Positions 8,842-48,530 of a stretch of 64,000 nucleotides of DNA are shown piece after piece. The notes beneath the pieces were generated by a model. It did not search any database. It had not been told where the DNA came from and worked only from the letters and a program-made list of their open reading frames with translations. A program made the translations under genes and the position numbers. Numbering within the stretch: the stretch's first letter is position 1; every line of letters begins with the position of its first letter. Source of the DNA: Mugil cephalus (taxonomy: Eukaryota; Chordata; Actinopteri; Mugiliformes; Mugilidae); NCBI RefSeq assembly GCF_022458985.1, contig NC_061789.1, positions 13,672,357 to 13,736,356 of the forward strand. Direction: 5' to 3'.

Positions 8842-11800
8842 TATCGGATCGGCCAGCTGTATATGATCAGTAAACACAGTCATGAACAGAGTGAACGTGG
8901 GGAAGGCGTGGAGGTGGTGCAGAACGAGCCGTACGAAGACCCGGAACACGGATCAGGCCAGTTCACAGAGAAACGAATCTACCTCAACAAGTGAGTGTCT
9001 TGGTCCTACCATTTATTTATGATACAGCTGAGAGTTATATTATCAGCAAATTTCCATGAGGTTAATTTCAAATGTTAGGGCATCAAGACCTTGCCATAAT
9101 TTGAAGTTTTTAAGACTGACGTCAAAGTGTTGAAAGCTTGCTTACAATAAATGAAATAAACTCAACATGATAGATAGAAATGAAATGTATGGAAGCCCTA
9201 AGTGGCCATGCATTCACACAGTATTTTTTTCTGTTTTCCTGTGATAATGAATTCATTTCCTCTGTTTTATCGAAATAACAAGTTATTTATCTCGTTTTCT
9301 CAGGAAAACAAAGTTTTCTTTTCTCAAGACCTCGATAGATTTAATTTGAGAGAGCTCCGTCATGCTGACTGATGGATGCCCTTAACACTGTAATGTAGTA
9401 AAATAATAGACCTGTAATAGGCCTACTGTAAGGTGAGCCATTTGATTTGTGCTTTAATGTTTGCTAGATTAAGTTTAACTTTCAGGAGATCATGGGAAAA
9501 TGGAGGAAATAATGTGTATGAATGCATGGCCGCTTAGGGTTTCCGTAGTAATGTATTCACTCGTGTCATGAACTTTGTCTGTGGTTTCTCCGCCAGGGCG
9601 TGTGAATAAAAATTAATGACTCCCGTATCCTGGAAGCCCGCCCCAAACTTCTCCATCCCACAAACTTTTTATTGATGAAATCATTCTGTTGGGAACTTAT
9701 TATGCCGCGACATAGATCTTCTGGGCCAATCAAATTGTTTACGTGGTGATGGAAAGAAGAGAACAGTGGTCCAGTCATACTCGGTGGAGTTGAATCTTAA
9801 TTTTACCAATCTTACACTGATTGGTTGTTGGACTAACCAATTGCGAAACCCTTTAATCAGGTACCGTGGTTCGACCACACATGCTCGCATGCCAAACTGG
9901 GCTGTCCTGATTAATAACAAACATGTTAGTTAGGATTATAAGTCTGCATGATTAAGACAGTGTTGCTACAGAGTCTCTGTTTTCTTTACATTAGCTTCAC
10001 TTGAGATCACTTTGGGTGGTGCATTCAATGCTCAGTCATCTTGCACCATAATCTAAGTATCCGATGGTGAGTGCTGTCGTGTGTACACAGAACAGCTAAA
10101 TGAAGCTACTTCTAGGTGTCTATCTTAGAAATTGGATGCTACATTAAGATATTTTAAGTATGGCTTAAGTGCTCAATTCCTGCTGAAGACTTTACAATCT
10201 TCTAATATTTCATGTGACACAAGTAATCCCTAACTTTTAGACACAAGTCACCATTTATTAATCTGCTGCTGATAAAGCTGTCAGAGAGAGCTTTGACAAA
10301 GAGAAGACAACGTGTCATCTCTTCGCTGCATAGCTGCCACTCATTCCTCCAGCAATCCTTGCTGTAAACATATGGGAAGCCCTTGGACAGATGTCTAATG
10401 CTCACATGTTCACATCAACATCTGGTAGCGTGTAAACCAAAATAAAGAGCTGAGTAAAAATATGAGGCTGGATAATCAAATGTCAGATATGAAGAGATTT
10501 TTGGATGTCCATTTCATTGTTGTTGTGCTTCAGGAATTTATTCATTTGGTTCCCCCCTTTCATCTCCCTTCAAGCCTTCTTCCCAGCTCAGTGCTGGCCC
10601 TGTGCTTTGTTAAACTTGATAAGCGTGAAATTGAGTATTTGATTTTCTGTTATGTAAATTACAATTGAATTAGCTAGAATGTGCAGTCTCTGTAGTGTGG
10701 TTCCTTTTCATCCACTGAAAAGATTTTTTTGTGCAGTAAGAAAAAAAAAGGAAATCATGAATTTGTCAGAATATCATGGACTTTTTATTGATTGCACTAA
10801 TGTTATTTTTCAAAGCAGGGCTATTCACCACACCAATTCCCCTTACTGAAGATATGAAAATGAAAAATGAGAGAATGAAGAATGATCATCTGCAGGCTTT
10901 AGTCATAAAGTCTTCAAATCTTTCATTGGCTCTCTGGCCAGTATTTTTTTTTAATCATAGCTGTTTCTGCATCAATCAGTAGCTTACTGCTAACTCACTT
11001 AGCTCATGGCCAGTCATATACTGTAGGCTGGTCAACAAAGGTCAATAAATCCATGCCTGACACTTTGCGGGAACACAAATCCATCAATACAGCCAACTTC
11101 TATCAAAGTAATGTAATTTGAAGCTATTGATTTCCATAGAGATCAGAGCACAGGGTCAGACGCAGAGCACTTCAGCTGGTATGAACTATGCGCATTGCAT
11201 TCGCCAACACTGTCAACTGAACCACCTTGGGGCGTGAATAACAGTTCAAATCTGCAGAGCAGGACCAATATAGTGACTCCACGTCTCAGATTCATTATTA
11301 TTACATGTTTGTTTAGAAGGGACAAGTGGAAAAGGATGCTGACAGCAGTGCATGATGTAATGTAGGTGTGTGCACAGTCAAAGCTATTGATATTGTGGTT
11401 GTGGTGTTGCTGGATTATCAACACTGTTAGACAATAAATTAAGGAGAAACTTCAGCATGGGTCTGCTAATATGATGAAAATGCAAATATATCTGGATGAT
11501 GTTTGTCAAAACTAAAATGTAATATTAACATTGCATAAAGCTAACCACAGATAGGGGATTGGAAACACCTCCGTAAACTAGGGAGTCAAAGTCCTGTGTT
11601 TTGTTCACCCTACATCCACCCCAGTGTCTCTGTGTGCTTCTAGTGTCCTACAAAAATAATCCACACAGAGATTACATTTATCACCAGCATAGCATAATAT
11701 GGGTACTACATAAATCTAATTTCACTGAGCTAGTTAGCCTCTTACTTTTACTACATTCATCCTACACGTAATAGTTTCATAGTATTTTTTTTTCCATGTC

Positions 11801-12065: not shown

Positions 12066-15000
12066 GTGTGCGTGTGTGTGTGTGGGCAGAGAAAGATGAG
12101 GTCAGTGTAAGTGATGGATAATTTGAGCAGTCTCTGTCGGACGCCGAGCCCGTCTCCACCCACAAACCACCTGTTACCATGTTATAGCTGCAGTGTGTAT
12201 GAGTGTTATTGTAAATAAGTCAGTGTGATGACATGCAGTGTCTGGACACTCCCCTGGCTGTTTGACAGGCCATTGGCAATGGACCAGAGGGAACAGGCTG
12301 TCCCATGTCCCGGTAGCCTATGCAGATACTGGGTGGCTCCAGCCAAATCTGTCAGGCAGGATAATGGTGGCCATGTTGGACCATGTTGCATTGTGTTGGC
12401 TAAGGTGGTTAAATGCACGGTGTGCCCATTATACATTGTCATGAGCATTGAGGAACTGGTTCCTGTTGCTCAACAGGTGGTTTTCGCTGGTTTTCGACTC
12501 AGGTCGACTGACCCGGCAATCAACTCGGGATGTTATTAGCTCAGCTTTGCTCGGCTTCGATGTGAACAGGAATGACGTTGATGTACATGCCTATCCCATT
12601 CAGATTTTGTCACTGGACAGCCTGTCAGACTATGTCATTGTAGAAGCTCCAGGGCCGTGAGCAGCTCAACAAACGGAGCAAAGTTTTGGTAGTGTGAGAT
12701 GGAGGAAAAAATAGACACATAGCTCTCACAGCGGGAGGTCAGACCTGAGACTGCTGGCGTGAGAGTGCACCAAAGGCGAGTCGAAAATCTTGTGTCAGCC
12801 CGGGATTTTCAATGTGAAAGGGACAATGTGGTTATATATATATATATATGCATATGCATAAAAAACACCTTTCTTTCTCCTATTGGTGGGATGGTGCCTG
12901 GATGCCTCAGTTGAGAACCTGCCCATTCCACTGGGACATCTTTTAGACAAAGGACCAGAAGAGAGTAGGGTGATAATGCCGGGGTGTGAGGCGGGCTGTG
13001 TCAAATGAATCAATGGCTGGCTTAACAGATAATTATCCCGTAAGTGCAATCTGGTACAACTTAATGATGACTTTGTGTCCAATTACAATGCTACTAGCAA
13101 TGCTTGATTGGCTAATGTTTAGGCATCAGGAAACTGGATGTTTCTGATGGAAGACAACTGTACACTCCCCTTCCCCTTTTCTCTCGGCATCAGTTGCCAG
13201 TGAGAACTTCCGATGTGAAAAGCGCCAGTAAAATCAATTCTGTTCACCTACGAATTCACATATTTCTCACATCTGTGGCTGTGATTTTCCTCACAGTCTA
13301 CCACAGCCTTTCTTCAGTATTCGTTTGCACTTTGATTGGACGCTCAGTAGGCTCCTTGTATACTGCGGCTGCAGTAATAGCTGCTCCTCTGTATGCTCCT
13401 CTCTATATCTATCACGATGCATGCTCTGGAAGGACTCTCCTGCAGGGTTCAGGGGGTAATCAGTGTAATCAACTTCCCCAAGGGGCCATCACGGTTGCGT
13501 TGAGCTGCCTCAATTATGGCTGCACACAGCTGGAAGCTTCTCATTGCCCTATTGCTGGGTGATGGGAGAATGAGAAGCTTTAAGGAAGCACTACTTTGAC
13601 TGTTCTTTGATTGTATAGCACATGAGATATTTGTCATCATCATCTTGCCTTTGTTTTTTTTTTTTATATTTCTTCTCTAGTTCATAAACAGATGCACTGT
13701 TCTTTGTCTTTCTTGCAGCAAGCTGCCCAGCTGGGCCAGAGCAGTGGTCCCTAAAATTTTCTATGTCACAGAGAAGGCTTGGAACTATTACCCATACACC
13801 ATCACAGGTAATTCATTAATCATGCACTCATTATCCACATACTACATTATACTGTTTAGTGTAATAATAATAAAAAAAAAAACCTTGCTCAAAAAAAAGG
13901 AAAAGGAACCGTCTTTCGCTCTGGAACAACGTTCCTACGTCAATGACTTTTCTGCAGCTCTCACGGTCATGCTCACCTGCTGACAGCCATTGTTCGGGAT
14001 CAGTGGGAGGGCAAAAGGATATAAAAGCAATATTCTCTCCAGTACAGTTCTGGTTGGGATAAATAGCGAAGTGCAAGGCTGTAAAAACAAGCAAATCATT
14101 TTTTAATTGTATTTTCTATATGATTGTAACGGTTTCTACATAATTTTTCCGCAATTTCCATCGCTATTTTGCAGCCATTATATTTGGAGGGGCACTTTAA
14201 CTCAGGTCATCTCACAATACGTGGACACTGCTTGAAACACCAGATCAAAGGTCTGCGCAATGTGTTACATAAATGTGTAATCCGCAGCATCCAAAGCCGT
14301 ATTATATCATATTATCACACTGCACGTTAATGTCGCAAGTTTAATGCCTCATCCTGCGGTTTGTAAGGTTCCACAACAAACTGGACACAAACAAGATGTC
14401 AGTGTGGTTATTTCAGCCTCAGTGTCTCTCAGCACTGCGTCGTGCAACATAGAAGCATCTGTACAAGGTCACACAGCTCCTCTGTATGAACCCTATGTTT
14501 ATGTTACAAACAAGCGTGACAAAGCATGCCCCTCAGCAGGACCCTGCATGTTAAAAAATTGTCATGCAGATTTAAAAAAAAAATGTCTGTCACAGCAAAA
14601 TGGGTTTTCTCTTATGTGCTTTTACAAAGAACCGAAGTCCCAATGGTTTAATGGTCCATTTTCCATTTCGAACTAAATTATTTTCCCCCCTCTACTCCCA
14701 TCTCATACTGTTTCGTTTCTTTGTCCTCTTCTACTCGTCTGCCCCCGTCCCGTGCGCACCCCTCCCGCTCCTGTCCATTAAACCGATGGGCTCCGCGGAA
14801 AATCTGCTCAGAGTACACGGTGAGTAGTTTCCGACGTTTCTGCCCCCTGCACACGCGCACCCAACACTTTGAGGGGAGGTTGTGTTTTGCCTTTGTATTA
14901 ACGGAGACGACATGTAGTTCCTAAATTGTGTCAATAATGTTTCAATTAAATCCATGAGCTAAACATAAGGCATGGCTCGGAGTGTGTCGGTGGGGTATGC

Positions 15001-18000
15001 AGTGTCTGTGTGAGTGGGATGGGGCAAGTGCTAATCACATGGAACAATCCCAATCACAAACAACTTTAGCAGTCTTGACCATTACATTCCATGTTCATGA
15101 CAGATGCGGCTATAATTGAAATAACAAATCCCCAGATCGGCACTGTGCTATGTACAATATTTCCTGTAGCTGGTGGGAGTGACAATGTGCCCATACTAAC
15201 CCTGGAAAGCTCTCCTAAACCTCTGCACATTTACAATCTCAATGGGCACTTGATACAGTGGCAAAGCAGCGATTATATCACACAAAACACTCTGACATCT
15301 CTGACTCGCCGGAACGAAAGCAAACCGGAGCAGAGAGGACAGAGCATGTGGTCCACGTACGGTAGCCAAAAGCCTTATACGTGTAAAAGAAACAAAGTTC
15401 TCGTTTTTGTGACTTCATTTTCATCTGAATATTCAACAATGACGCGATCATCTAGAATGAACAGACTGTTCATTGCATGATACAGGAGAGGCCAGGTGTG
15501 TACGACGGTTTGTAGCTCTGCCTAGCTTCTATAGCTGCTCCTTTCTTTCTGAATGACGAACACAGACTTCTGTCACCTGCTTTCATGAAGAGTTGTTTTC
15601 TTTCACGCAGCCACCACCTGATCCCCGGATACCGGCCACAAGTTGCAACTTCACTTCATTGCGTCCGTTAGCTCTCTGATGCCGGCTTAGTGTTTCCGGG
15701 TCTTTAAGCATCAAAACCACTCAATTCATTCATTTTATTTACTCAGCCTCAATAACAATACAAACTGTCTCAAGATGCCCTTACAAAACAAAATACAAAA
15801 TAAGTACGACGAGCGGCAGTAAAGAAAAAGAAAACTTTTTAACAGGAAGAAATGTTGAACAGAACCTGTTTACTCAAGGCAGAAAAAATTTTGGTTAAGT
15901 TCAGGGAAAAGACTGTGGTTTTGGCTAAAATGTGACAACAACAAAGATATTAGCTGAGTGTTCGTTACATTTTTTCGCAAAATAAAAGCTATATTTCTGA
16001 AATTTGCGCTTTATACGCGTTTCCACTGATAGGTGTTTCGCGAATGAGCTGCAAATCTCGTCAAGTCTCATCTCGCGATCTCTTAAATCCTCTTCACGCA
16101 AGACTTCACTTTTGAGAACTTTTATATCGACATATCTGAGAGTTTTTTCGGAATGTAGGCTTTTCCATTACCATTTTTTTTATTTTTTATTACGCATTTC
16201 TAGGGCTAATGGAAACGCAGCGACTGCCTGATAGGGAAATACAGTGTATTATTTTCAAATCTGTGCTCCGAGTCATGACAATATGAAACTAAAAATCAAG
16301 ATGTCCAAGGACACAAAACACTTTAATTAAAAATCAGGAGTATTTCACAAACTCCCCTAAGACTCGGCCGGCTCTCAGCCGTAGAGGTGATAATTGACTG
16401 TCTCGGACAAAAAGCACTAATGATTTGCTCGGGGACATTAGGGGGACGTGCCCTGTGACATGTCCATCCACACACACACTCACACACATACACACACACC
16501 TCCTCCTCCAACACCTTATGTCCAAAGCAGCAAGAAAACATCAATGAAGCCGAAATAAAATTAGCTGCAGGCTGATGTCCTCTCCGACGATTACGCGTCT
16601 AGTTGAAGCATCTGGATGTGTGAGGAAGGTCGTGTCGGCTCACACGGAAGTCAGTAACTTTTTACTGCTGTGGGTGTACAAAGTAGCACACAGTGTTTTG
16701 AAAGCATCAGCCACTAACAAGACCAACGCGAAGCATGGTCGCGCTGATGCAGATGGGGAATGCTTAGTTACACTTTTGCCCACTGTGGGTGGTGATGATG
16801 CAGGGTGTGAAGATAAAGATTGGCTGTGGCAAGGTCAATTAAAAATAACTAGCTGCAATGGCGTACGCCGATTGCAGGGTTGGTTGTCAAGGGAGGGAAA
16901 TATCAGTCGATCTTAAGTGTCTATAGGGTCGGGGGGTTAGGATTGCCCCGACATTTTGAACAAACATTAATAGTCTGTAGAAAGAAGAAGCTTATTGATT
17001 TTGGTGGTTTCTCCATCCGTACATCCGACTCCACCTTCAGGCTTTTGGAAAATCGGTCCTCAGCGTGATGGATAAACAGCTAAAAAAACATGCACGGGTC
17101 CAGTTAACTCGACTGCTTGCGCAGTAGGTATATTAAAAAGAGGCATACACGCTCCCTGTCTCTCTGTTTGCTATGCATTCACCCTGAGCTACCAGCATCA
17201 ATCCTCGTACGCTCCTTCTTACCTCTGCTGCAGAATTGATCATTCCTGCTGTCTCCGTCCTGCTGTGCCACACAAACACACGCACTCACACACACAGAAG
17301 CTTGTACATCTTCAGCTTATGTAACCAACTTTCAACTTTTTGGTTGTGTAATAATTGGAACCACCGTTAAGCTGTTAGGTTAAGAGCTAATTGGACTTGG
17401 TTGGCGGCGTCGCCGCTCATCTGGTTTTGTGTAATGCAATTTGAATCACATGTCATCCTCCGTGTTGTGATCTGGCCCAAACAAAGCCCGCAGTCAAAGC
17501 AACGCAATTATCATCCGACAGTCGTCATTGAGCATATTGATTTGTCACTCTTCTCTCTCCCCTCCAGTGCTCCTTCCTGCCCAAGTTTTCCATCCACATA
17601 GAGAGCAAGTACGAAGACAACAAAGGGAGCAATGATAATGTGAGTGCCGCTCCGAGAGCTGAACGTTTGACTCTGTTTTTTCTTCTTCTTGTATTTCTAC
17701 CGAAATTGTCTGAAGGGTCGTTTTCATGCAATGTCAACGTCAAAACGTTTCTGTAGATTCAAGGCACATCTTTGTGGAGAGATATGGCAACAGAGAGCAG
17801 AGCCTGAGTAGAATAATCTTCTCACTTCGCATAACATACTGCACCTAGAGGTCACAGACATCATTTAGTCAGTCAAGTTAGATATATAGATATAAGTGTT
17901 GATTCGTTGTATTGAGTCCTCAGAGCGACAGCATCTTGATTGGCACTGGGGGGATTATCTCAGTTATGCAATACTGCCTCGGTCCACGGCGCAGCTGAAG

Positions 18001-19079
18001 AGGAAGGGCCGCAGCTCCACTAAGTGGCGACTGGCGGTAGCTGCAAATGCACTATGTCTCTTTCCCAGATGGCCATAATTTCACTTTTGCGAGTAATTGT
18101 AACAAGTGGGGGTGTAGGCATGTTCAACACAAAGACTTTGCTCCTTCCGCTCTCGAGATAACACGTCCCACCCCCTCCGCCATTTGTCCAGTCATGGCTC
18201 CTCTTTTCCACTAATGTCTTTGAGCTCTCAATCTCTCTTCAGCCACTCCTGTAAGCAGGTTTCTCGACGGTTTGGTCGAGAGTCGGCTTTGATGTGTCAC
18301 CCGCCGCGAGGCGTTAGTCACGACCATCCTCAGGGTATTGTCTGAGCCTAAAGCCTGAAGGACAGAATGTGTTCATCGTCTCCGCTACTGCCTAATTGTA
18401 AAAATCCAAACTCCTTTCAACTTCTGCTTTTTTCTGCCTCTCTGATAACTTCCAGCCCGCGCCCGGTCCACCTCTCACTGACTCACCAACACCTTTAAAT
18501 GCGTCCTTGATCTAGCTTCACTCAACTGTTCCTTGTTCTCCAGATCTTCAACAGCGGGCCCAGAGACGAGGAAACCGAGGTGTGCTTCGTGGACATTGCC
18601 TATGATGAGATCCCCGAGCGCCACTACAAGGAGTCAGAGGTGAGGGCGCTGACCTCAGGAATGAATGAATGTACACAGAGAGGCAGAGAGGAGGGCGGGA
18701 AGAAGGGCGAAAGAGGAGAATGCACAATGCTGACGGACAGAAGAACAAGCGAAGTGGGGGAGAAGAGACGTAAATGGCGAGAGTGACAAACGGAGAGAAG
18801 GGATACGAGCAGATAAACAGAATAGCGTGTTATCTTCCTCGAGCAGCGCCAGCTCCTTTCTGGCCACCAGCTGGCCATCTGCCTCCGCTGAGCGATGGAA
18901 CAGAGGGGCATATACGTTAGCGCCTGGGGAGGGAGGTGGTGGACATTAGCCGTGGTGATTTGACATTTGTATGCGCGCGTGTTTGCTCGTCTGTCAGGGG
19001 AGGGGGGCGGCCGCAAAAAGACGAGCTATTAATAACCTGGGACAGCGGTGCAGTGGTGTTTTATTATTGACACCTTCAC

Positions 19080-19160
<81 letters not shown>

Positions 19161-21179
19161 ACCTTCCGCTGGGTTTTACGGTCTTCTGCCGTTAAACGCC
19201 CAGGGTTAAGAATAGCACACAGATGATGTCCAGAGTTAAACGTGGACGTCAGACGGCCAATGCAAATATCATTTGATTTCAAGGACAGATGTGACGTGTG
19301 CGTGTCAGTTTATGTTCTTTGCTTATTGAATTAAAATACACAGATTTGCCAGCAGCGCGTGTTTATATCTTTCTGTCTGCCGATAAACTCAATGACACAT
19401 TTTGATGAGACAAATGCAACAGGCTAGCAGGGATGGAGAGAGCTGCTACCCCCACTCCGGGCGCATGACCCTGAGACAAATGAGCACCGTGGTATAATTA
19501 GTCCGTGCGGACCGGTGATAAATGCGTGTAAAGCATCTGATTAGAGACTGAGGCTGAGCTGTACTGTGCACAATGAATGCAGGTCATCTCAGTTCTGTAG
19601 CCAGGGAGAGAGAAACTGATGTTAGAGAGTGGAAGACAGTAAAGAGGATTTTAGTTATTTTTCCTTAATCTTTTTTTTATTGTCTCCTGGCCTTGTAGGA
19701 CCTTCGGTATTTTAAGTCGAAGAAGACGAGCCGGGGGAGTCTTCAGGAAGGATGGATCAACACCCAAGAGCCCATCATGTGTTCGTACAAACTGGTCAGC
19801 GTCAAGTTTGAAGTCTGGGGATTGCAAACCCGCGTGGAACAATTTGTACACAAGGTCAGAACTTTAAAAAATATATATTTTCTCTTTGTGGGGGTGGGGC
19901 AGACATAATGTAGATGCCATCACGGATGTTCCTTATTCAGACAAACTATTTGCCCTCTGTCGATTGGTGTCATTGCCAGGGGCGTCCCATTTTTCTGCAA
20001 GGTCGCGAACCTAATCAGCAGTTCCATTATCGCCCTTTAGCACATCTGACCTGTTCGCAGCTCACAGTTTACCGTGCGTCAACTCTTGACTCTTGCAGAG
20101 TTTAAACTTCATTTATATCTCCCATTTCCCAAATCTGTTTTGCCAAGCCCTCTGCAGCATCTGTCCCCGAGGCAAACTGTCCCAAGTTCTCTCCTTGCCC
20201 GAGGCAAACACATAAGCACACACACACAGGGAGGGCCATTACTCACTTGGTAACACCTAAAATAACTCATATTGATAGCATACCTCTAGAGGCGAAGTGA
20301 AACACTTAAAACCTTAAAGTATTTTCACACTCTGACTTTTTTTTCCTGGAAATTCATCTCTCTCTATCTGTTCCTCTCTGCTGATATCCCACCCCGACTC
20401 ACCTCTTTTGCTTCTGCCCAGGTGATCCGAGATGTCCTTCTCCTGGGACACAGGCAGGCCTTTGCCTGGGTGGACGAGTGGATTGGTAAGTGGTTTGGTT
20501 TTGTTAGGAGGCACTGACTCACCGCAAGATGTCTGTTGGCTAACAGAGAGAAAACCCTGATTCTTTTCGTGGCCAATTGAAACAAACTGATTTAGATGCA
20601 GTGATTTGAGAAAAATTGAAATTTGACGTGTGTGAGAGAGTGGAAAGAAAATTCCCTTCCCCTTAGCACCCGTTCTAGGTCCTCGTGTAGAATCCTAAGC
20701 CAGTAAAGATCCCAGCTCACTGGCCACCTTAGGTACACTTTGCTAGAACCAGGTAGAACCCCTTTCGTATTCTGAACTGCCTTAATTCTTCAGGACAATC
20801 GTTGCTCTCTTCACAAACCAAAAGGTTTTGTCTCTTAACGTTTGTACGTCTTAACGTTTTTTCAACAGATATGACCATGGAGGAAGTAAGGGAGTACGAG
20901 CGTGCCACCCAGGAAGCTACCAACCTTAAGATTGGCAGCTTCCCCCCGGCCATCTCAATTTCAGAGACCCCCCTGCCATCCAGCGCCCGCAGCGGACCCA
21001 ACAGCGCTCCATCTACTCCCCTCTCCACCGAACCTCCGGAGTTCCTCTCGGTGCCCAAAGAGCGACCCAGGAAGAAGTCGGCCCCGGAGACCTTGACCCT
21101 GCCGGATCCAGGCCGCAGGGATTCGATCTTCAAACTGCCCAGCTTTTTCTCCTGGAACTCAAGCCCGCAGCCAGAGTGA
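8842..21179 (+). CDS. pitpnc1: Cytoplasmic phosphatidylinositol transfer protein 1 (RdgB-beta), 5' partial
   Basis: Soluble class II PITP that carries phosphatidylinositol and phosphatidic acid between membranes. Exons: 8842-8990, 13719-13807, 14812-14819 (8-nt microexon), 17568-17639, 18544-18639, 19699-19854, 20422-20485, 20869-21179. They total 945 nt (314 codons plus stop); about 16 N-terminal residues are missing to the left. The translation is near-identical to the family: IGQLYMISKHSHEQS, FYVTEKAWNYYPYTIT, CSYKLVSVKFEVWGLQTRVE, RQAFAWVDEW. Thr and Lys in GQFTEK correspond to the inositol-phosphate contacts Thr59/Lys61 of PITP-alpha. The last exon encodes the long-isoform tail with the two 14-3-3-type regions (RSGPNSAP and RPRKKSAPE), but the final 22 residues (from GRRDSIFK) differ from the mammalian tail I recall. 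Large introns carry repeats. The gene converges on slc25a19. Confidence 0.95.
12035..12084. repeat. (TG)n microsatellite
   Basis: TG dinucleotide repeats with two CG interruptions. Confidence 0.9.
12440..12830 (+). repeat. Interspersed repeat, copy B
   Basis: Inverted partner of copy A, about 8 kb away in the same gene. It carries cttcgatgtgaacaggaatg and tcattgtagaagctccaggg, and ends in cccgggattttcaatgtgaa followed by aggg. Confidence 0.65.
14812..14819 (+). CDS. pitpnc1: 8-nt microexon of pitpnc1
   Basis: The exon ending at 13807 leaves one base (G) of a codon, and the exon at 17568 starts in phase with TGC TCC. Joining them directly breaks the frame and loses the family residues Glu-Tyr-Thr before Cys-Ser-Phe-Leu-Pro. 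The sequence AGTACACG at 14812-14819 is preceded by ctgctcag and followed by the consensus donor gtgagt. It supplies exactly G-AG TAC ACG (E Y T) and restores the frame. A long pyrimidine-rich stretch lies upstream (about 14685-14775), as is common where an exon is too small for ordinary exon definition. Confidence 0.9.
14820..17567 (+). other. pitpnc1 intron downstream of the microexon
   Basis: 2.7 kb intron. It includes a possible transposon relic at 15960-16225 with inverted GCGTTTCC/GGAAACGC ends. Non-repetitive stretches at 16320-16470 and 17330-17530 are candidates for conserved noncoding sequence. No coding exon was found. Confidence 0.6.
15960..16225. repeat. Possible miniature inverted-repeat element
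   Basis: GCGTTTCCACT near 16017 faces TGGAAACGC near 16211, about 190 bp apart in opposite orientation. AT-rich sequence lies between them. No target-site duplication was confirmed. Confidence 0.3.
19082..19158. repeat. (CA)n microsatellite
   Basis: Uninterrupted CA repeats, about 38 units, in a pitpnc1 intron. Confidence 0.95.
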
Positions 21180-22450: not shown

Positions 22451-22587
22451 ACGGACCAAGACTGGACTAAATAAAAGAAACACATGTTTAATTCAGTCCG
22501 GTTTGTCAGCATCCCAAACAACATTGTCTAAAATGATCACACATTTGAATTACCACCTTGCTGAAGGTGTTTCAACATCAGCTGGAC

Positions 22588-22589
<2 letters not shown>

Positions 22590-22646
<57 letters not shown>

Positions 22647-22888
22647 TATATATATACATATATACATATATATATACATATATAATATACATATACATAC
22701 ACTATATACATATACATATATATATATACATATAATATAATATATACACATATACATATATATATACATACATATATATATATACACATATATATACATA
22801 TACATATACACATATATATACATATACATATATATATATATATATATACATACACACAAACATATATATATATATATATATATATATT
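22590..22888. repeat. Long AT/ACATAT-rich microsatellite
   Basis: About 300 bp of (AT)n interspersed with atacat and acatat units, flanked by pure (AT)n on both sides. It fills the gap between the two convergent 3' ends. Confidence 0.95.
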
Positions 22889-23014
22889 GTCATTAAGTGC
22901 AGGACTATTATATAAGATTGTATTGCTTTTCATTGGTGTGTGTGCATGTAAAATAGGTAAACAAGTGCACTTGAAACATTTACAAAGCCACTGTCCATGG
23001 ATCACACGGAATTC

Positions 23015-23499: not shown

Positions 23500-25417
23500 T
23501 TATCTTTCCCTTGGGTCTTTGGTGACGCCGCTTGCTCCCTGTCTCTCCTTGATCTTACGCATTGTACTGAGGAAAAATTCATACCAAAAAAAGATGAAGC
23601 CTGTCGACAGCGCAGCCTTCACCAGACTGGGCGAGAGGCCTTTGAAGAAGCCTCGGATGCCCTCCTCTTTGGTTATTTGAACCATGCAGTCCAACAGGTT
23701 TCTGTAACTCCGCACCTGCACATGAGAAACAGGATATGACAGTTACACACTAGGCCATGATTGTGTGCGCCAGTGATGGGTGTATTATGCTGTGTAGGAT
23801 CTCACCTGTCCAAAGTGAACTCTGGCTTCTTCAAAGCCCCCCACCTGCAGTCTCTTTTTGAACAGGTCAAAGGGGTATGTGAGTGTTTTGCTTATCATTC
23901 CAGCTCCACTGCCACTGATCAGGCTTCTAAAGTTTCCTTGAAGGGAGAAACAAACAAAAAAAAAAAAAAATCAAAGGATTTTAGATTTATGTGTACATCA
24001 ACATGTACGTAACTGTGCGGCATGGTGCGGGTCTGCAAGCTAAATGTCCACTGACCTCCTGAGTTTCCGGTTTTGGGTGGCGGGTCCAGCAGCTTTTTGA
24101 AGACGTTGTAGAAGAAGAACTGCAGTCCGGCGTAGGGAAACACTGCCAGCAGTGTCGGAGACAGGCCGCGGTAAAATGTCAGCGCTCCCTCTGAGCGCCA
24201 CATTGTCGAGACGGCATGTCGCAGGTTCCTGTACACCTGGCAGAAGGTTACGGCCAAGTGCACAAAATTTTAATCCCAGCGGAAAATTACACACGTACGT
24301 AGTTTTTTTGTGCGCTTGACGACTTGGAGGATAGCCCCGAACTTCCCCCACCAACACAGTTGGTTCTGGGATTGTTATGTTGTTATTGATGATATAGCCA
24401 CGAGGTACGAGATGAAGCCACGAGGCCCAAATAAGTGTCGGAAAATGAACTGATGGGTTAACCATCAAAAATGAAATTGTGTTAAGGCAGAAGACTTTTA
24501 ATACTTCTTATTTTTTTAATATTTCTGAGGTCTTTTGCTAACCTGCAGATGCCCTGTGATAATTTTCTAACTTTTACTAAAGAGGTGGTTTCTTAAGTCA
24601 TACCTTAGGCTCTCCCTGAGCTGCAAAGCGTGTCCGCAGCGTGTCCAGAGGCTGGCAAACCACGGTAGCAGAGCAGGCTGCCAAGCCGCCACAGACAAAG
24701 TGAACCCCTGGTGTCCGGCTGTCATACGCCGTCGACTTATGGACCATCTCGGTCAGGAACTCAAAACTGGCAAACTGCAAATCACAATTAATCGTGTTAC
24801 TGGGGTTTTGTGAGAGAGAGACAGAGATATAATATATGTATGTGCGTCATCGTGCAGTCGTCCCACCTGGACAGCCCCGTAGCCGATGGACAGGAGCTGC
24901 GCTGGGATGTGGCCCTTCCAGAAAGCAGTGAGCCCCTCCTCTGAATAAATGCAGCGTGAAGCCTGAAAGATTCCCCAGTACTTCCCCTCTGGCCTTTTTG
25001 AAGACACATCCTCTATTTGCAGCTGTGGAGGGAACAAAATACTGATAAGCACTCGGGAAAAAAAAGAAGAATTTCTATTTTTGTGACAACATTTTCTACG
25101 ATTGCTCACATGCGATGCAAAGTGATCAAGAATCACACAAGCCAAATCAATGATGATGATTGCGTAGACTGTGTAGTATATACAAATAAATGCAAGTCAC
25201 TTTGAATTATCACTGAACTCTCTTCTGCCACAGCCTAAATTCAGCAGTGACATGTCAAGCAACACATACGCGGTTCAGTCATTACCTGAAATCTGATTTT
25301 AAGGACGTCGAAAGGACTGATGAGGGCTCTGGTGACCATCCCAGATGCTGACCCAGCCAGCACTGCCTCCTCTGTGGTGACAGCTACACCCTGAGCACCA
25401 GGGTCATAGCCCACCAT
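23500..25417 (-). CDS. slc25a19: Mitochondrial thiamine pyrophosphate carrier
   Basis: Inner-membrane mitochondrial carrier that imports thiamine pyrophosphate into the matrix for pyruvate, 2-oxoglutarate and branched-chain dehydrogenases. Six coding exons on the minus strand: 25417-25286, 25022-24867, 24774-24604, 24236-24056, 23936-23806, 23715-23500. They predict 328 aa (human 320). Start MVGYDP matches the family; the ATG context has G at -3 and G at +4. All three carrier signatures PX[DE]XX[KR] are present: [11 protein letters not shown] (residues 34-44), [10 protein letters not shown] (137-146) and [11 protein letters not shown] (234-244), one per two-helix repeat. [17 protein letters not shown] and KAALSTGF are family landmarks. 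Tail-to-tail with pitpnc1 and head-to-head with mif4gd. Confidence 0.96.
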
Positions 25418-32622: not shown

Positions 32623-35600
32623 ATGGCGTACCAGGAAGGGGAGTCGCTTGAATCTTGGCTTAGTGAGTGATTAATCTCATTTTATGAATGGCTTAGCTTG
32701 AATAATTGGCTAGACGCGTTTTATCGGATGACGAGATTGAAAATCCGTCAGTGCCGGAGCTGTCAGTGCGTTAATAGTTGCTTTCAGCTCTTTGACAGCT
32801 ACTGGAGGTGTCATTCTAGGCAGTGTCTGCATCATTAGCAGGAGGGGTGGAGAGCAGTAATAAACAGTGTCTGGGGCTCATTTACAAGAGACAGCTCAGG
32901 AAGTGCAATGACTGATCAGAGGGATCAAGCTTCATGTATAGTTAACTCTCAGCGCAGCTCGCATGGCAGAAACAGATTTCGTGTGAATGATGAATGAACT
33001 GTAAACAATGAACAATACATCTGTTATTACCAAGAGGCAGAGTGACAACAATTACTGCACTGTCACTGGCACAATACCCAGGGGGAGACATAGTCACAGT
33101 GGGATGTGAGCAGTGGAAAGTCAACTTAAATACTTAAGTGCTTAAATAATGTTGTACTATTTATTATACCTATTTGACAGTAGATGTGACTGGCTTATTC
33201 ACATTATATAATTAAGTGCATTGCTCTGCTAAAATTGCACTGGTGGCAATTTTTAAGCGAGTGTTTGGTTCAAATCTACACATTTCTGACGTACATCTTT
33301 GTATATGACTAGTTAGCAGTTAACCACAAAAAGGGGAACTATGTTTAATCTCCAGAGATCATTACATTCAGATTCAATTTCCATTTATATAATTGCATAA
33401 AGCAAAGAAACAGGAATTTGTCCCAAGGTATAAATACAAATTTGTATCATTTAATTTTATTTCCCTGATTGCAGGCAAGCATGCCCGCCCGTTAGTGTGT
33501 GAATGGGTGAAAGAGAAACATTGTACAACACTAAGCTAAACACGTTTACAGACTCAACAACAATATGCAACCGTAATAATGTTCAGTTTATATTGAAACT
33601 GGCGAAATTACATAATTTTGGAGGATGAATTTTGTGGTGCTGCAAATGTGTATTTATAATTATTTATTTAGCCTACCCCACTGACATAAATGCAGCTGTG
33701 GAAATAATAGAAACAAGTGTCCATATAACGTAATACAAGTCAATAGTACTACAAAGCTGCAAAAAGGGAAACACAGTTGAATCAACAGCTCTCTCACTTG
33801 GTTGAAACTAACGCTGAATATCATAATGACATATAATATCCGTCATCAAAGCTAAGATTTATTTCAGGGCTGTTATATTTCAATGCATTTATTTTCACTA
33901 GTGCACCTAATAAACTGGCAAGTGAGTGTAAAGGTGCACACCAGTCATCACATCGACAATACAAAATTTACTGTTTGGTTCTCTTTGGCGCCACCTATAG
34001 GAACGCGCAGTAAGTGCGTTTTTTAACCTCACTACCCACAGACGCGGGCCATGTTGCCTGGGTAACGTTGCCCTTTCTTTGTTTAGCCTTTGTTTAGCCA
34101 AAGGTACATTTACTTGCAACTGTAACAAAGAAGATAAAAAAATCAACCAATGTGGAGGGAGTTTATCAAGGGAGCCCATCGTTTTAGCTCTGCCTAACAG
34201 CTGGTGTCATTAAATGTGCACAGCTATTGTGCGGAAATGTTGCCACAGATTTGTAATACTATAAATGCCTATGTACCATTTAATAAATAAGTGGGTGATA
34301 GACTCACCTGTGTTGCCTCACTTGGTGGTTGAATGTGACTTATGAAAATATATGGGCACTTAAAGACTTTTACTTGTAATGATAAATGAGGAGGACTGTT
34401 ACGTCGATAATGCACTTTTATTTAAGAGTTTAAGAGCCGTCCATTTCTGACAGACAAAGCCACCCATCCGGCAAACAGGCAAGAGGACTGGGAATACATC
34501 ATCGGCTTCTGTGATCAGATCAACAAGGAACTGGAAGGGTACGTTCAATACCAAAACGTTTGTGAAGATTGTTAGTCATCCATTCATGGTATGTTTGGTA
34601 ACAGGGAGTCTTTGTAACATTTTTGGGAAGCGTTTACTGATTCGTGGGGTCAGTGAGGTCAACAGTTGGGGTCATTAGTTCAATTGCTGACAACAGTACA
34701 GTCATTGACCATCATGTGGTCATCCAGATTTTTTTTGTTTTGCAGTCCTCAGATCGCAGTAACTCTACTCGTGCACAAAATCCACTCTCCTCAAGAATGG
34801 GAAGCGCTTCAGGCTCTGACCGTAAGAAACGATACAACGCAATGGCTAACGCGTGTCCTTTTTTTGTTGTTGTTGTTTTCTCATCTACTGAATGATCCGT
34901 TCACGGAAGCATCTTTTTTTCCAGGTGTTGGAGGCGTGTATGAAGAACTGCGGGAAACGGTTTCACAATGAAGTGGGGAAGTACAGATTTTTGAATGAGC
35001 TGATTAAAGTTGTCTCTCCAAAGGTCAGTTGTCTTCATCTTTGTTTTGACTTTACGCTGACTAGAAGCCTGCTGAATGATAGTCTACCGTCCTTATATCT
35101 CCAGTACATGGGTGACAGTGCGCCGGAGAAGGTGAAGAATAAGATCGTAGAGATGCTGTACAGCTGGACCGTTGCTTTTCCCAACGAAGCCAAGATCAAC
35201 GAAGCCTACCAGACGCTGAGGAGACAGGGTGGGTAGAGATGTGGATCAATCAAATGGTGTAAAGGAAATATATCTGCCTTAAAGGAAGCTCCATCATTTG
35301 GTCTTCACTCTCTTCGCCAGGCCTCGTGACACATGACCCGGAGCTACCGCTGGACAGGACTCTGATTCCGTCTCCTCCAACACGACCTAAACACCCGGTG
35401 TTTGACAACGAGGACATGGGCAAGGTGAAAATAAAGCACGTGTGGTTAAGGGTTTTTTTTTTCTGTATTTGACTGGCTCGTTTTTTGTTTAATAATTTGC
35501 TCTAGGATAAAAACCAGGTTGTCAGTTTATTAGCGCGTTATGCGGATATTTACGTGCTCCTGTGTTTGTGTCTCTTTAGCTCCTTGCTGAGCTTCTCCGG

Positions 35601-42154: not shown

Positions 42155-48530
<6,376 letters not shown>

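Follow-up and report, generated by a model that had tools for sequence, protein, structure and literature searches.

Exons of very small size are spliced with difficulty, and crowding between the complexes that assemble on their two splice sites is a possible reason (PMC4317164, PMC10250204). For exon 2 of MPC1, a constitutive microexon of 4 nt whose length is not a multiple of three, 67 nt of upstream and 6 nt of downstream sequence suffice, and the major branch sites lie at −68 and −64 (PMC9929638). A different arrangement is found in the distant-branch-point exons of Gooding et al. (2006), such as PTB exon 11, in which a long AG-free zone runs up to the acceptor and the branch point and pyrimidine tract lie toward the 5′ end of that zone (PMC1431707). 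Such zones are rare at the longer lengths: only 165 of 67,334 human exons, including exons of PTB and nPTB, have one of at least 150 nt (PMC1431707). The neuronal microexons dependent on SRRM3/SRRM4 combine a tiny exon with a strong 5′ splice site, a weak 3′ splice site and a UGC near the acceptor (PMC10250204).

Here, we describe an 8-nt exon in a pitpnc1-type gene that has points in common with each of these systems. Like MPC1 exon 2, it is shorter than 10 nt, breaks the frame if skipped, appears essential to the protein and has long flanking introns, and its splicing signals cluster in the 5′ splice site and immediately before the exon; it differs in that its AG-free zone extends to 172 nt, compared to major branch sites at −68 and −64 in MPC1, and in that its inclusion is inferred (PMC9929638). 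It shares with the distant-branch-point exons the long AG-free zone reaching the acceptor and the placement of its pyrimidine tract and candidate branch point near the zone’s 5′ end, and with PTB exon 11 the nonsense-mediated decay (NMD) predicted on skipping. However, those exons are not described as microexons in the account of them on which we draw, and the branch point here is a candidate only (PMC1431707). The resemblance to SRRM3/SRRM4-dependent microexons extends from exon size, splice site strengths and UGC (PMC10250204) to expression of the gene in brain, judging by the zebrafish pitpnc1a form (PMC6092267). Animal microexons mostly keep the reading frame, whereas the one in pitpnc1 breaks it and is seemingly indispensable (PMC8831610, PMC9929638).

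The window, by which we mean the whole 64,000-nt stretch of Mugil cephalus contig NC_061789.1 that was analyzed, carries the second to ninth coding exons of a pitpnc1-type gene on its + strand, separated by GT-AG introns. A tblastn search of the window with a hand-entered human PITPNC1 sequence locates all of these exons except the one of 8 nt; matches with E values of 1.2 or more, on either strand, are at chance level and were excluded. The coding exons are as follows.

8842 to 8990, + strand: coding exon 2 (149 nt), YRIGQLYMISKH...YLN, from tblastn, with splice sites tttttcag and gtgagt
13719 to 13807, + strand: coding exon 3 (89 nt), KLPSWARAVVPKIFYVTEKAWNYYPYTIT plus G, from tblastn, 100% identity over 30 aa
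14812 to 14819, + strand: 8-nt coding microexon (exon 4), AGTACACG, from the fit of frame, flanks and peptide
17568 to 17639, + strand: coding exon 5 (72 nt), CSFLPKFSIHIESKYEDNKGSNDN, from tblastn; holds the premature TGA if the microexon is skipped
18544 to 18639, + strand: coding exon 6 (96 nt), from tblastn
19699 to 19854, + strand: coding exon 7 (156 nt), from tblastn
20422 to 20485, + strand: coding exon 8 (64 nt), from tblastn
20869 to 21179, + strand: last coding exon with a long C terminus (RPRKKSAPETL...), from tblastn; stop codon TGA at 21177–21179

A six-frame search of the window with the single regular expression M[LIV][LIMV]KE[YF] did not locate coding exon 1 (MLLKEY...). The reconstructed protein matches the Pfam IP_trans domain over residues 1–227 with 345.2 bits (profile positions 17–246 of 246), and solved PITP-α chains match it with E values of about 1e-50. 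PITPNC1 gives a better E value than PITPNM1 at all five exons matched by both in tblastn, a comparison in which both queries were entered by hand and PITPNM1 was represented by its N-terminal part only. The gene matches human PITPNC1, a protein of the RdgB-β class, along the tblastn exons. The long C terminus, including the RPRKKSAPETL segment, is held in common with the human long form, and the C-terminal exon is 69.8% identical to the human query. Because of this long C terminus, and since Pitpnc1a alone of the two zebrafish Pitpnc1 proteins retains the potential 14-3-3-binding serines, the gene is probably of pitpnc1a type (PMC6092267). The 64-nt length of exon 8 equals that of a mouse Pitpnc1 exon by its published coordinates, which is one sign of a common exon structure (PMC5063418). 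The guide used for zebrafish pitpnc1a knockout, assigned to “exon 2,” matches 17 of 20 bases at 13729–13748, within the third coding exon here, which shows that gene models number their exons differently (PMC6092267). The EKAWN segment of exon 3 would contain the residues E86 and N90 named in the same study (PMC6092267).

Elsewhere in the window are mitochondrial carrier exons (Pfam Mito_carr; 23919–25196, − strand), which lie downstream of pitpnc1, one or more VHS-domain exons (Pfam VHS; 34892–35236, + strand) and a Nup85 exon (Pfam Nucleopor_Nup85; 43259–43606, − strand). We take the carrier exons to resemble SLC25A19 and the VHS sequence to be GGA3-like. GGA3, NUP85, SLC25A19 and PITPNC1 presumably all map to human 17q24-q25, so the neighborhood may be an old chromosome segment. 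Among the nine proteins searched, three window open reading frames have no Pfam match.

The initial annotation had proposed that eight bases with AG and GT flanks join the exons at 13719–13807 and 17568–17639, that they restore the frame of a pitpnc1-type gene, and that skipping them shifts it. Position, sequence, flanks and frame are all confirmed (...ctgctcag / AGTACACG / gtgagtag...). Exon 3 stops one base into a codon (ACA G, phase 1), the microexon contributes AG TAC ACG and exon 5 opens with TGC TCC, such that the spliced product reads ...YTIT-EYT-CSFL..., with Glu-Tyr-Thr encoded by the last base of exon 3 and the microexon. In the human PITPNC1 query, the equivalent of exon 3 covers the protein through residue 95 and that of exon 5 resumes at residue 99, leaving a gap of exactly residues 96–98 (EYT). 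Thus, 14812–14819 is a short internal exon in frame with its neighbors and bounded on both sides by GT-AG introns, of 1004 nt upstream and 2748 nt downstream. The acceptor is a tandem AGAG (14810–14813), as the exon itself opens with AG, and a 2-nt slip is possible; the 6-nt version produced by the second AG breaks the frame. Donor scoring identifies the following 5′ splice site.

14820 to 14825, + strand: 5′ splice site GTGAGT (ACG/GTGAGT)

Scored with hand-entered weights, this donor ranks first of the 224 GTs in the interval 13808–17567; among the seven donors that the gene has in the window, it takes second place.

The octamer could in principle be a chance match, with exons 3 and 5 truly joined by another exon or through an alternative site and the eight bases left unspliced. 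We compared the 3760-nt interval 13808–17567 with 5000 dinucleotide shuffles of itself. An octamer of the form AG+[AR TAY ACN]+GT, encoding exactly EYT, arises in 0.18% of the shuffles, and in none of the 5000 together with a GTRAG donor; in the window, the EYT pattern occurs once when both strands are scanned. An octamer encoding a loosely similar tripeptide, [ED][YF][TSM], is not very rare, being present in 3.7% of shuffles, and this lends the chance reading some support. So does an 11-nt candidate at 16235–16245 ending in ...KYS, a vaguely similar tripeptide, which lies outside the best 12 of 295 donors. These 295 are the open, in-frame exons of up to 300 nt that could bridge exons 3 and 5; among them, the donor of 14812–14819 scores highest, and no other exon ends in YT. 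Thirteen further 8-nt candidates with AG..GT flanks are open in the interval but do not give YT, and no longer exon ending at 14819 and starting from an AG within 13808–14811 is both open and in frame. Direct joins of exon 3 to exon 5 were also considered (donors in 13760–13899, acceptors in 17500–17599): four are in frame without a stop, and each damages the protein by deleting or replacing residues. The rarity of the exact octamer, the rank of its donor, the lack of another YT-ending bridge among the 295 and the damage done by all four direct joins make a chance match highly improbable, and 14812–14819 is almost certainly a real exon.

The initial annotation further described Glu-Tyr-Thr as conserved in the family, and this stands in part. 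The tripeptide agrees with the human PITPNC1 query, and it is on this protein, rather than on exon boundaries in other species, that the conservation of the exon’s residues rests; PITPNM1 has R-Y-T at the same position. In the solved structures of PITP-α (1uw5, 8pqo, 1kcm, 1t27) and PITP-β (2a1l), V-I-T and I-V-T occupy these positions, with the Thr alone in common. Judged by its residues, the EYT exon matches its own subfamily, PITPNC1, and not all PITPs. A search for further relatives with six peptide patterns in two collections without vertebrate genomes gave 18 pattern matches in viral contigs and 136 in genome contigs, of which none was confirmed.

Skipping of the microexon would produce VLLPAQVFHPHREQVRRQQREQ, a stretch of 22 foreign residues, followed by a TGA in exon 5. 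Counted from exon 2, the stop of the skipped coding sequence starts at nt 304, ahead of four coding exon junctions at 310, 406, 562 and 626. Under the usual junction rule for NMD, a stop that precedes four coding junctions leads us to predict that the skipped mRNA is destroyed. The truncated product itself matches IP_trans over residues 1–81 only, with 128.3 bits compared to 345.2 bits for the full form. The microexon is very probably required for a functional protein.

Upstream of the microexon lies a feature that the initial annotation had missed, a long interval without AG that ends exactly at the microexon’s acceptor AG (14810–14811). The zone and the candidate branch points within it, all of which are matches to a consensus only, are as follows.

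14638 to 14809, + strand: AG-free zone of 172 bases preceding the microexon, from an AG-to-AG interval scan
14651, + strand: candidate branch point TTAAT, a strict yUnAy match
14676, + strand: candidate distant branch A in CTAAA, 136 nt before the exon, a loose consensus match chosen for its position just before the pyrimidine tract
14705, + strand: candidate branch point CTCAT, a strict yUnAy match
14781, + strand: candidate branch point TTAAA, a loose match at a conventional distance (31 nt upstream)

The + strand of the window has 4083 AG-to-AG intervals, and only two of them reach 172 nt or more; the other, which is the longest of the window, is an AT/ACAT microsatellite at 22580–22896. 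Eight of 1000 shuffles of the interval 13808–17567 hold an AG-free interval that long anywhere. The zone includes a pyrimidine-rich tract at about 14678–14777 that is displaced from the acceptor. An RNA hairpin that would shorten the distance from branch to acceptor was also considered and set aside: the segment 14670–14835 folds with z = −1.70, and 12 of 200 shuffles fold at least as well.

A long pyrimidine tract so far upstream of the acceptor suggests a distant branch point, a reading toward which we lean, and at 172 nt the zone is well above the minimum of 100 nt that serves as a sign of such branch points. The exon might instead be real but recognized in the ordinary way, from a branch point at 14781, some 30 nt before the exon, with the AG-free zone a by-product of the pyrimidine-rich stretch; a pyrimidine tract alone reduces the frequency of AG. 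The TTAAA at 14781 lies at a conventional distance, so a distant branch is not forced, and the favored distant candidate, CTAAA, is itself a loose match. Gooding et al. moreover estimated the share of AG-free zones of at least 100 nt that mark distant branch points at only one-half to one-fifth (PMC1431707). However, the region where such an ordinary site would need its tract is poor in pyrimidines. The near-acceptor region of the microexon has 12 in 23 positions, whereas each of the gene’s seven other acceptors has 15–21 in 23, and 14783–14811 has 14 in 29 (counted by eye). The zone also stands apart from the AG-free stretches of those seven sibling acceptors, which measure 25, 26, 33, 41, 42, 42 and 100 nt. 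Ordinary recognition is a real possibility, though one that we doubt.

A distant branch point would offer a route by which the exon could be recognized. Eight nucleotides would be too short for U1 and U2/U2AF to occupy both edges simultaneously. On one side, recognition might proceed via the very strong 5′ splice site and, on the other, via a branch point and pyrimidine tract about 100–160 nt upstream. With the branch point far off, U1 and U2 could both bind around the 8-nt exon, and at the second step the spliceosome would take the first AG that it meets, 14810–14811. The explanation that we hold with good confidence is that of a genuine 8-nt internal pitpnc1 exon, obligatory for the full-length protein, with this proposed route of recognition.

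The initial annotation also suggested that inclusion of the exon could act as an on/off switch, and this idea fits the architecture of the intron, which resembles that of regulated microexons. The exon would be deliberately skipped in some cells, for example under PTB-type repression at the upstream tract that an SRRM3/4-type activator at the UGC would relieve elsewhere, and NMD would turn pitpnc1 off where skipping occurs. The premature stop with four coding junctions downstream is consistent with such a switch. In addition, a U2AF2-like motif lies 10–20 nt upstream of 96% of the constitutive micro-exons in human, and these are thymine rich at 5–20 nt, whereas alternative ones have less thymine there and more beyond 20 nt (PMC4317164). 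The microexon has the alternative pattern, with a poor near tract and more thymine beyond 20 nt upstream. Constitutive human micro-exons also tend toward short flanking introns, so the poor near tract and the introns of 1004 and 2748 nt count against plain constitutive splicing (PMC4317164). Alternative splicing is more frequent at AG-free zones of at least 100 nt, and in PTB exon 11 the same layout goes together with NMD on skipping (PMC1431707). A weak 3′ site, a strong 5′ site and a UGC near the 3′ site, which are features of SRRM4-dependent exons (PMC10250204), are all present here, with the strengths taken from hand-entered donor weights and pyrimidine counts and the UGC being only 3 bases long.

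14805 to 14807, + strand: TGC (UGC) at −7 to −5 of the acceptor, a motif match; two more TGC occur at 14740 and 14753

TTCT, TCTT and CTCTT elements at 14717–14732 and the UGC at 14805 could serve as the sites of repressor and activator, but these motifs are short and candidates only. Zebrafish Pitpnc1a protein was detected in brain only among the adult tissues tested (PMC6092267), as a neuronal switch would lead one to expect; however, brain-only expression can be transcriptional.

Several published observations run the other way. Microexons shorter than 10 nt whose length is not a multiple of three were constitutive in endogenous mRNA in all five of five genes sequenced, although HeLa reporter constructs in the same study did not fully reproduce constitutive inclusion (PMC9929638). 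About 81% of human micro-exons of up to 51 nt are constitutive across tissues, a share that falls with size (PMC4317164), and about 77–80% of human microexons are multiples of three (PMC9929638, PMC8831610). In mouse, one published Pitpnc1 splicing event maps close to the gene’s 3′ end and not to this position (PMC5063418). None of the papers searched joins the unhyphenated term “microexon” to PITPNC1 or pitpnc1a, and the single paper matching both “micro-exon” and phosphatidylinositol transfer protein concerns plants. One zebrafish study of srrm3/4 microexons does not contain the string “pitp” in its main text, nor do four other papers contain “pitpn” in theirs (PMC9929638, PMC1431707, PMC10250204, PMC4317164). 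We therefore regard deliberate skipping in some cells as unlikely. Still less probable, in our judgment, is its most elaborate form, an NMD-coupled gatekeeper that would restrict pitpnc1 protein to cells in the right splicing state, that of neurons, by setting PTB-type repression of a distant branch point against an SRRM3/4-type activator bound to the UGC. If a switch did operate, a lipid-transfer gene would join those gated by a frame-breaking microexon. Obligatory inclusion is the reading that we prefer, and wherever the gene is active, nearly all of its mature transcripts probably contain the microexon.

Exons of up to 15 nt are hard for automated annotation in plants (PMC8831610), which makes the caution attached to gene models in the initial annotation a reasonable one. 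A model lacking the microexon would contain either a spurious frameshift or an incorrect bridge within the PITP domain. Given this risk, it would be worthwhile to check how pitpnc1 is annotated in related animals.

Considered as a whole, the microexon is a further case of a known class, the frame-essential microexons, and the AG-free zone upstream of it is the most interesting new detail. This zone offers a compact example of how an 8-nt exon might fit the spliceosome, as a distant branch point would end the competition for space.
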